Below are positions 5,035 to 10,438 of a stretch of DNA of 10,438 nucleotides, in pieces. How positions within the stretch are numbered: the first letter of the stretch is position 1; each line of letters opens with the position of its first letter. Origin of the DNA: a bacterium (GTDB lineage: Bacteria > UBA9089 > CG2-30-40-21 > SBAY01); the NCBI GenBank assembly GCA_040757115.1, contig JBFLYA010000134.1:1-10438 (forward strand). Direction: 5' to 3'. The position numbers and the translations under genes are program-made. The notes below the pieces were generated by a model, which saw nothing but the letters and a program-made list of their open reading frames with translations, had not been told where the DNA came from and ran no database searches.

Positions 5035-5373
5035 ATGCGGTTTTTTATAGCAGTTCTGATGTGTATTTGTGTAGGAGTAGGAGGACAATTATTGTTAAAA
5101 ACAGGTGTTTCGCAAGCGGAGATAGGTAATTATTTTCAAATGCTAACCCATCCTGCGGTTATCATAGGTGGTTTTCTTTATATCGGAAGCTCTTTCTTAT
5201 GGCTTTTATTGCTTCAAAGAGCACACCTGAGTTACTTATACCCACTGATTAGTGTCTCGTATGTTCTGGTAGTAATTGCTTCTTGCCTTTTATTTCAGGA
5301 AATAGTATCCCCTATTAGATGGATAGGGGTAGGAGTAATTTGTGTGGGAGTAACTTTAGTCTCACAGAGTTAG
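5035..5373 (+). CDS. SMR/EamA-type small membrane protein, ArnE-like flippase subunit (first of a pair)
   Basis: This 112-aa protein has four predicted helices (about 2-22, 39-59, 66-86, 93-110), the small multidrug resistance fold. The membrane-embedded Glu of drug-exporting EmrE in helix 1 is absent; instead it has GGQLLLKTGV (16-25), like the ArnE branch that flips undecaprenyl-phosphate-aminoarabinose. The C-terminal half, LLFQEIVSPIRWIGVGVICV, is typical of EamA half-repeats. Shine-Dalgarno AAGGAGG sits six bases before the ATG. It is closely related to the next gene, suggesting duplication and a heterodimer as in ArnE/ArnF. With the UbiA-family gene upstream, a role in flipping a polyprenyl-phosphate sugar is inferred; the true substrate is unknown. 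Confidence 0.85.
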   Translation: MRFFIAVLMCICVGVGGQLLLKTGVSQAEIGNYFQMLTHPAVIIGGFLYIGSSFLWLLLLQRAHLSYLYPLISVSYVLVVIASCLLFQEIVSPIRWIGVGVICVGVTLVSQS

Positions 5374-5374
5374 T

Positions 5375-5486
5375 GATTGGTAACTGGTAATTGGTAACTG
5401 GTAATTAAATACCATCCGGCTGAACTCACGACGAAGATATTTAACCAATTACCAGTTACCGGTTACCAGTTACCAATTACCAGTTA
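5375..5486 (+). repeat. Large GGTAACTGGTAATT-family hairpin between the SMR genes
   Basis: The 128-bp gap between the SMR genes is mostly one inverted repeat. The 21 bases at 5381-5401 are a perfect reverse complement of 5466-5486, and further units extend both arms (about 5375-5409 and 5439-5486). Each arm is a tandem of TAACTGG/TAATTGG units. The right arm stops two bases before the Shine-Dalgarno AAGGAGG (5489-5495) of the second SMR gene. A unique stretch (about 5412-5436, CATCCGGCTGAACTCACGAC) forms the loop. Confidence 0.88.
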
Positions 5487-9716: not shown

Positions 9717-9767
9717 TTAATACTTGTCTCCTTTCTTTTGGTAAGAACAGCCTTTCACGAAATTCAT
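9717..9767 (-). other. Possible 16-codon upstream ORF before yajC
   Basis: The frame MNFVKGCSYQKKGDKY ends with TAA one base before the yajC ATG, and yajC's AAAGGAG lies inside it, an arrangement suited to translational coupling. However, the AAGGAG in front of its ATG is only two bases away, too close for a good start, and the first codons merely resemble the yajC start (MNFV/MNLV). Low confidence. Confidence 0.22.
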
Positions 9768-9857
9768 AGCTCCTTGATTAACAAGAAGTTACAAATACGC
9801 TTTTTTCTTATTGCCCTCCTACTATATAACTCCTTGATTTCAAAAGAGTTGCAAATG
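9766..9857 (-). repeat. Two hairpin units 60 bp apart in the yajC leader
   Basis: The units at 9766-9796 and 9826-9856 match at about 24 of 31 positions (plus-strand consensus ATARCTCCTTGATT, then AGTTRCAAAT). Each can fold on itself: AACTTCTTG with CAAGGAGCT (with wobble), and AACTC/TTTTG with CAAGGAGTT. On the yajC strand the AAGGAG of each unit would be in the stem. TTGACA occurs just upstream on the minus strand, but no matching -10 was found. Confidence 0.5.
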
Positions 9858-9883
9858 TCAATTTCTTGCTTTTTTTTGATTTT

Positions 9884-9904
9884 CACCCCTTTTAAATAGG
9901 GGTG
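9884..9904. repeat. Hairpin CACCCCT/AGGGGTG
   Basis: A perfect seven-base stem (9884-9890 with 9898-9904) encloses the loop TTTAAAT. Nearby, ATTGCCCTCC (9810-9819) and GGAGGGCAAT (9904-9913) form a perfect ten-base inverted repeat across about 84 bases. No proper T tract follows on either strand, so a terminator is not claimed. It lies in the 261-bp gap between the DUF559 remnant and yajC. Confidence 0.5.
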
Positions 9905-9970
9905 GAGGGCAATTTTACTTTTTTCCCTCTACCCACAGGGGGCTACACTTACCCCGGGTTTGCAGGCAAT

Positions 9971-10003
9971 TCCCCCTTAATAAAGGGGGTTAGGGGGTTG
10001 TAA
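9971..10003. repeat. C-rich palindromic repeat R1 (3' flank of the DUF559 gene)
   Basis: CCCCCTTAATAAAGGGGG (9972-9989) is a near-palindrome followed by TTAGGGGGTTGTAA. Positions 9980-10003 are the exact reverse complement of 10387-10410 and of 10415-10438. On the minus strand R1 supplies the last codons (QPPNPLY) and the TAA of the DUF559 frame. Confidence 0.9.
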
Positions 10004-10360
10004 TTGTTCAATCCATCCTTCAATTGCCCTTAAAACATTGTCTATATCTTTCTTTACATCACTATCATTGAATCTTATGAGAGTTAAACCCATAGACTTT
10101 AATTTCCATCCCCCTTAATAAAGGGGGCATAGGGGGTTGTTTCTTTCCATATCGTACTCAAATCTACTCTCGTTGTGGGTTTCTCCATCAATTTCAATTA
10201 CCAGTTTTAGTCTACTACAATAAAAATCAACAATATACTCCCCAATAGGCTTTTGTCTCATAAACTGATAGCCATTCATCTTTCTGCTTCTCAAATACTT
10301 CCAAAGCAATACTTCGGATAAAACCCCTTGCTTTCTAAGTTCTCTGGCGTAAGTTTTCAA
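9977..10360 (-). pseudogene. DUF559 endonuclease-domain gene, interrupted by a palindromic repeat
   Basis: The minus-strand frame encodes a DUF559 protein, a family with a Vsr/PD-(D/E)xK-like nuclease fold. Residues 1-73 (from a TTG at 10360) show the family pattern: YARELRKQGVLSEVLLWKYL (4-23), GYQFMRQKPIGEYIVDFYC (30-48, Asp45) and LVIEIDGETH (53-62, Glu56, Asp58). At codon 82 a TAA (10115-10117) stops the frame, but the same frame resumes with WKLKSMGLTLIRF and continues to IEGWIEQLQPPNPLY and a TAA at 9977-9979. The break is exactly the C-rich repeat at 10109-10141; removing about 30-33 bases restores a protein of about 116 aa, normal for the family. The frame also extends upstream as KKIHYNPK with no standard start before a stop in the flanking repeat, so the start is damaged too or is non-canonical. 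An 81-aa truncated product is possible but would lack the C-terminal helices. Confidence 0.85.
10109..10141. repeat. C-rich palindromic repeat R2 inserted in the DUF559 frame
   Basis: This has the same layout as R1 (CCCCCTTAATAAAGGGGG, then CATAGGGGGTTGT instead of TTAGGGGGTTGT) and the same orientation. On the minus strand it is read as NNPLCPLY, TAA, GG. The length is a multiple of three, so the downstream gene part remains in frame after the stop. Confidence 0.9.
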
Positions 10361-10384
10361 TTTCGGATTGTAATGAATCTTCTT

Positions 10385-10438
10385 ACTTACAACCCCCTAA
10401 CCCCCTTTATATACTTACAACCCCCTAACCCCCTTTAT
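10385..10438. repeat. Tandem C-rich repeats R3 and R4 (5' flank of the DUF559 gene)
   Basis: Two units of 28-base period (10385-10412 and 10413-10438, the latter cut by the window end) each contain ACAACCCCCTAACCCCCTTT. They are in inverted orientation to R1 and R2, so the gene is bracketed by perfect 24-base inverted repeats. More units may follow beyond the window. Confidence 0.9.

Follow-up and report, generated by a model that had tools for sequence, protein, structure and literature searches.

The window examined here, the entire 10,438-nucleotide contig JBFLYA010000134.1 (C134) of the bacterial assembly GCA_040757115.1, ends in the remains of a DUF559 gene, a small nuclease gene lying between inverted copies of a short repeat. 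The first-pass annotation of this DNA proposed that the nuclease and the repeat travel together as a minimal mobile system. The repeats are BoxC/PIT/TM elements or close relatives of them, and are called PITs below. The bracketing of DUF559 genes by inverted PITs, with a conserved geometry, holds across phyla, and this phylum-spanning link makes DUF559 a candidate enzyme for the BoxC/PIT/TM repeats. The copy in the window is itself a pseudogene, and its spread within its own genome needs a separate explanation.

The DUF559 copy in the window

The features at the right end of the window are as follows, with copies elsewhere in the same genome named by their contigs.

9748..9765, plus strand: left terminal inverted repeat (TIR) CAGCCTTTCACGAAATTC of a larger dispersed element, mirroring the right end ATAGGGCTTCACGAAATTC, which is seen in other copies and is located past the contig end here
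9766..9970, no strand assigned: left part of the larger element outside the PIT, common to C7, C28, C144, C183 and C269 (87-97% identity)
9972..9999, plus strand: left PIT, CCCCCTT-aata-AAGGGGG-tta-GGGGGTT, at the gene's 3' end with its third strand towards the gene; includes the arm 9980-10003
9977..10114, minus strand: C-terminal DUF559 fragment of 45 codons that continues the frame beyond the TAA; its QPPNPLY* end lies inside the left PIT
10110..10138, plus strand: internal PIT, CCCCCTT-aata-AAGGGGG-cata-GGGGGTT, within the DUF559 open reading frame (ORF), with the TAA at 10115-10117; the same in C7, C28 and C269
10115..10360, minus strand: N-terminal DUF559 fragment, 81 amino acids from a TTG (PF04480, E 2.1e-25); the true start just upstream is mutated
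10387..10410, minus strand: first tandem copy within the right repeat, made up of purine arm and third strand, an exact inverted match
10415..10438, minus strand: second tandem copy within the right repeat, with the same two parts, the last bases of the contig

The exact 24-base inverted arms described in the first-pass annotation are there, with 9980-10003 the reverse complement of both 10387-10410 and the extra tandem copy at 10415-10438 (24/24 in each case). The right side, 10387-10438, consists of two 28-bp tandems holding only the purine arm and third strand, and the contig end falls inside this right-hand repeat; a third tandem and a complete element are present in copy C28 only. The compact CCCCCTT/AAGGGGG palindrome noted at first is also present, and its description was incomplete, since the GGGGGTT after it is a matched third strand. 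The repeat core has ~75 occurrences in the 4.3-Mb genome of the window, and no triplex motif appeared in 100 mononucleotide shuffles of the window. A PIT-like sequence also opens the contig at 24-57 (minus strand CCCCCAAgatTTGGGGGGTGGGGGTT), so that both contig ends lie in such repeats. Elsewhere in the window, 5373-5486 and 1768-1800 are dispersed intergenic repeats of the AATTGGTAACTGGTAATT type, and several unrelated families of short repeats are abundant in this genome.

The gene between the repeats was correctly placed in its family: PF04480 matches 10019-10363 on the minus strand with 102.6 bits, against a gathering score of 20.6 bits, in an alignment that spans one internal stop. The gene is not intact, however. 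The window copy is a pseudogene, unable to make an intact nuclease because the internal repeat copy (10110-10138) brings an in-frame TAA and because the start ATG is mutated; the ATG of copy C28 (GTAAGTATGAAG) reads AAG at the window gene's start. A single-frame translation gives ...YDMER-NNPLCPLY*GGW-KLKSMGL...IEQLQPPNPLY*, and the internal repeat is missing at the same point in relatives from the same family and order, which read ...DRQQFLESLG (L085) and ...NRQLRLESLG (L080).

DUF559 genes and triplex-motif repeats across phyla

The main sample comprised 80 loci from many phyla, taken as best matches to one alignment and representing one large DUF559 clade, of which 76 were scored. Inverted matches between the 250-bp flanks reached a score of at least 16 at 68% of the 76 loci, compared with 0.24% of 1269 control placements at the same loci. 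A strict triplex finder placed motifs on both sides of 55 of these genes, on one side of 17 and on neither side of four. Within 250 bp of DUF559 the motif density is 4.66/kb; it falls to 0.77/kb at 250-500 bp and to 0.07-0.17/kb farther out. The enrichment of repeats beside DUF559 genes, which the first-pass annotation had named as something to test, is present across phyla. Shuffled DUF559 flanks gave no triplex motifs. Chance or base composition would have to draw on the G/C runs that are common in some of these genomes, and its probability is negligible: it is refuted by the control placements, by the shuffled flanks and shuffled window, and by a reversed PIT pattern that had 0 matches in 386 genomes.

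The geometry is conserved as well. Third strands point at the gene from either side (66 upstream on the plus strand, 74 downstream on the minus strand), and the unit measured from PIT to PIT has a median length of 420 bp (10-90% range 407-452 bp). The start codon follows the upstream PIT by a median of 9 bp, and the stop codon lies within or past the downstream PIT in 57 of 67 loci, which accounts for the C-terminal tails that many DUF559 proteins have. The PPNPLY-type tails mentioned in the first-pass annotation are borne out by these loci and by the QPPNPLY end of the window's C-terminal fragment.

In a second, independent set of 36 stand-alone DUF559 loci, taken from other families, PITs lay on both sides at 23, on one side at nine and on neither at four. 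None of eight weak DUF559 matches in other, mostly large, frames carried PITs; six more large-frame matches with strong scores did have them. Conversely, a search of 386 genomes for inward-facing PIT pairs at unit spacing gave three, each at the position of a DUF559 gene. The picture is therefore not one of DUF559 loci bare of flanks or of repeats unlinked to DUF559, and the first-pass idea survives. A shortened DUF559 match on P. aeruginosa pHOU1-1 (L190), between gtrS and an ABC transporter gene, coincides with no annotated gene and has flanks without PITs.

By its sequence the repeat is a class II purine-motif intrastrand triplex motif with the BoxC/PIT/TM architecture. In the window it runs in the order pyrimidine arm, loop, purine arm, spacer of ~3 nucleotides and third strand mirroring the purine arm, with G.GC, A.AT or T.AT triads at 7/7 positions in both 9972-9999 and 10110-10138. 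Triplex folding in vitro has been shown for the E. coli TM by circular dichroism and nuclear magnetic resonance (PMC4666352). Stem and third strand covary across DUF559-flanking hairpins, as seen in 118 hairpins picked by their stems alone, with the tails not used for selection. For stem positions with A, the mirrored base is A or T in 170 of 208 cases; for those with G, in 87 of 832 (Fisher p 3e-90). Triad agreement reaches 0.852, whereas 1000 tail swaps gave 0.732 at most. Examples of stems with their third strands are GGGGGAAGG with GGATGGGGG, GGGGGAGGA with AGGTGGGGG, GGGAGAGGG with GGGTGAGGG and GGAGAGGGG with GGGGAGAGG. The spacer between purine arm and third strand in these hairpins is mostly TTG, TTA, CTG or CCG. 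Five loci (L110, L111, L143, L075 and L329) show a left/right asymmetry, with GGGGGAAGG/GGATGGGGG upstream and GGGGGAGGA/AGGTGGGGG downstream, resembling distinct left and right ends.

The repeats are also matched to their own genes. In genomes with several units, the mean edit distance between a unit's own PITs is 3.5, compared with 10.3 to the PITs of neighbouring paralogs (permutation p 0.005). Between genomes, PIT distance follows protein distance with r 0.24-0.25 (p 0.0005), a weak correlation that is not phylogeny-corrected. Both the conserved third strand and the matching per paralog are left unexplained if the C/G-rich hairpins stand on either side solely to keep transcription away from a small nuclease gene that may be toxic. 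The compact placement of PITs and gene would suit such insulators, and the account is nevertheless quite improbable: Maher's group saw no PIT promoter or terminator activity in E. coli, according to PMC4666352, and in 18 comparable genomes, chosen mainly as PIT-rich, the small mobile family of ParE toxin genes had PITs on both sides in 0 of 30 cases.

At the level of whole genomes, with a DUF559 cut-off of E 1e-20 or better, 33 of 386 genomes have both DUF559 and canonical PITs, 37 have DUF559 only, 33 PITs only and 283 neither. The odds ratio is 7.6 (p 2.8e-11, not phylogeny-corrected, with most genomes coming from different families). Four genomes, G156, G168, G193 and G245, hold 17-64 canonical PITs and no DUF559 match, which may reflect another enzyme or past loss. 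No ORF was found inside inward PIT pairs at the loci examined in these four.

Evidence for movement of the units

Within the genome of the window, the unit sits in a larger element with terminal inverted repeats. The end motif of this element has 26 copies in the genome and its reversed control has none. Copy C28 has both element ends, flanked flush by an 11-bp direct duplication TTTAGAAATTG, so that both terminal inverted repeats and a target-site duplication (n = 1), the marks of a TIR transposon or miniature inverted-repeat transposable element (MITE), are present. The first-pass statement that there is no transposase holds for the window, with the correction that the terminal repeats there belong to a conventional element. 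The DUF559 gene of C28 is interrupted by a 281-bp insertion (G000:C28:26982-27264), which has short internal inverted ends and a 5-bp query overlap and looks like a separate small mobile element.

The same in-frame stop is found in every copy that covers that point (C7, C28, C134 and C269), and the other DUF559 matches of the genome are partial, at contig edges or stop-bearing; conclusions on copy number are limited by the contig breaks of a repeat-rich metagenome-assembled genome. Because the covering copies have one common stop, the copies multiplied after the gene had died; to spread them, a transposase must have acted in trans, with DUF559 as a passenger. The window-genome copies have most likely spread in this way, as cargo of the TIR element. 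A similar case is found in genome G243, where the unit lies within a TIR element (TIR GGCWCWTGGCAGGAARGTGT) with an 8-bp duplication TAATAAAT/TAATGAAT, judged against the empty site of the sister species G372.

That the unit is carried by a MITE-like element which a conventional transposase mobilises in trans has a somewhat better than even chance, resting on the shared ends, the flush duplication, the common stop and the G243 parallel. Hitch-hiking of this kind is favoured as the explanation of copy number in the window genome but not of the association seen across the family, since TIR transposition leaves the PIT-DUF559 bracketing, the inward geometry and the matched repeats per paralog unexplained. 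Carriage inside a TIR element is a local case and not the rule, because extra inverted repeats outside the PITs are rare elsewhere (about 4/79 units with any); TIRs as a general feature of DUF559 units were ruled out on the same count. Two near-identical Rpn-type PD-(D/E)XK nuclease genes (PDDEXK_2, PF12784, E 4e-49), at G000:C19:24500-29500 (L283, L258) and G000:C154:700-5300 (L284, L270), likewise lie beside the outer end module of this element, and its ends may be common to this second nuclease family.

Beyond the window genome, signs of movement come from multi-copy units and empty sites. Genome G134 has ten DUF559 loci, eight or nine of which form one unit family, 86-95% identical, on separate contigs and several with stops. 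Some of their pairwise alignments stop a few bases from the outer PIT edges, and others extend into shared flanks. A Sinorhizobium unit with PIT doublets on either side separates two genes that are adjacent in Shinella without any PIT (82% identity), and the G243 unit is absent from the matching site of G372, which reads CAGGTAATAAAT-TGTCGAAGG. Empty sites in sister genomes, which the first-pass annotation had named as a check, are thus seen in Shinella and G372, and any single case could be a deletion in the sister genome. A G113/G251 comparison matches in the left flank and not in the right, and Azospirillum has the unit in all seven records, with no empty site. E. coli ycjD was dropped as an empty-site test, since strains without ycjD carry an efflux operon there. 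PITs also stand in frame within murL of Rhodanobacter (L121:3769-3809, L134:3766-3806 and L161:3767-3803; absent in L153), at the same insertion point and with a PIT sequence that differs among species.

The proposal that nuclease and repeat travel together accordingly stands on the bracketing, co-occurrence, multi-copy units and empty sites found beyond the window, and fails for the window copy itself, a pseudogene carried as TIR cargo. The empty sites also bear on homing, in which the nuclease would cut PIT sites and double-strand-break repair would copy the gene in, in the manner of a free-standing homing endonuclease. Vsr-like (EDxHD) homing endonucleases are known, and the many solo PITs and doublets offer possible targets. 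The two empty sites examined, few in number and 8-18% divergent, hold no PIT, and one asymmetric PIT alone cannot yield two complete inverted copies around a gene; homing is doubtful on these grounds.

Proposed mechanism and relation to known systems

Stand-alone DUF559 proteins are probably the dedicated enzyme partners of BoxC/PIT/TM repeats; that they recognise and cut their own PITs and that repair spreads the repeats is what we infer from the association. The basic unit would be a PIT, a DUF559 gene and an inverted PIT, about 420 bp in all, with the third strands facing the gene. The nuclease would recognise its own PIT, probably as a folded purine-rich single strand exposed at replication or repair, and would nick or cut at or near it. 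Host repair, templated by another PIT or unit, might then spread or rearrange the repeats, with solo PITs and inverted doublets as presumed non-autonomous derivatives. Insertion would have to rely on host repair or another transposase, because PD-(D/E)XK enzymes do not themselves catalyse strand transfer. The broader claim, that DUF559 recognises triplex DNA and drives its dispersal as a selfish system over most bacterial phyla, with matched paralogs and no relation to REP/RAYT, stands at about even odds.

Several points weigh against this account. PD-(D/E)XK nucleases hydrolyse DNA, and insertion needs partner activities. Cleavage of PITs by DUF559, like any role in moving BoxC/PIT repeats, is an inference. 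The units of the window genome and of G243 lie inside TIR elements with target duplications, that is, they show conventional transposition. Both the co-occurrence and the protein/PIT correlation leave phylogeny uncorrected. Fourteen of the 32 genomes with at least five canonical PITs have no DUF559 match, and two more have weak ones only; PITs can thus outlive DUF559 or do without it, and loss, incomplete assembly or another enzyme has to be allowed for. Finally, a different function, mismatch repair, has been proposed for a Caulobacter DUF559 protein (PMC12907096).

That proposal belongs with a reading in which the DUF559 nuclease serves the host or protects itself by clearing triplexes, hairpins or mismatches at PITs, the adjacent PITs being its regulatory sites. 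The fold is that of Vsr, with a match to PDB 3hrl 'Endonuclease-Like Protein' (E 5.5e-34), and the PIT about 9 bp from the start codon would suit a regulatory site. Caulobacter scmA (methyltransferase) mutants need the DUF559 protein VsrA for their DNA damage response (PMC12907096), and DUF559 is upregulated in a cytosine-methyltransferase mutant of Deinococcus radiodurans (PMC6712171). The patchy distribution, the decayed multi-copy units and the empty sites fit a selfish unit better, and a regulator needs neither two inverted copies nor solo copies elsewhere. A repair role is unlikely on balance, though less so than homing, and the partnership of nuclease and repeat stays the favoured account.

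BoxC, discovered in E. coli in the 1990s, was later re-described as the triplex-forming PIT/TM in >260 genomes, with ties to genome instability (PMC4666352). Like those elements, the repeats described here are class II purine-motif triplexes with the third strand 3', dispersed, partly in inverted pairs and abundant in many bacteria. Unlike them, they are linked to an enzyme: none of the papers found ties an enzyme to the known elements, and Holder et al. 2015 state that mobility functions were never found near the E. coli copies and mention neither DUF559 nor ycjD (PMC4666352). The window sequence, CCCCCTT/AAGGGGG/GGGGGTT, also differs from that of E. coli BoxC. No DUF559 paper on such repeats was found in the openly licensed literature; a subscription journal may hold an earlier report. 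In E. coli K-12, ycjD is a DUF559 gene with BoxC-like repeats just downstream, before fabI, and among 5426 E. coli genomes no fewer than 3362 contain most of the ycjD region; a laboratory strain is thus available for testing the model. If true, it would provide a natural case of an enzyme and triplex DNA evolving together, shown by the covariation of stem and third strand.

Other known families share single features with the system. Vsr, the EDxHD homing endonucleases and Caulobacter VsrA have the same fold, and DUF559 proteins have been assigned to both groups; here there is no intron or intein, and mismatch repair or homing was proposed for those proteins, not a partnership with repeats. The CGTC-tagged repetitive extragenic palindromic (REP) sequences (among them Neisseria dRS3 and Rickettsia RPE; PMC3733652) are likewise orphan palindromic repeats without a dedicated transposase, sometimes in frame in genes, and belong to a different sequence family. 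A link to them was dropped, as PIT-like repeats, not dRS3, stand on either side of the DUF559 gene of N. gonorrhoeae.

The closest analogy is the one drawn in the first-pass annotation, with REP sequences and their RAYT transposases (REPtrons and REPINs), where a nuclease gene also lies between inverted short palindromes that occur solo or as doublets as well. The window's ORF list holds no RAYT-like ORF, the flanked gene being DUF559 and not an HUH transposase, and the foot of the hairpins has the spacers given above in place of a GTAG tag. The enzyme is a PD-(D/E)XK nuclease here and an HUH enzyme there, and the repeats here carry a triplex third strand. By analogy, the DUF559-PIT system would work like REP/RAYT without being a member of it, pairing an unrelated enzyme with an unrelated repeat.
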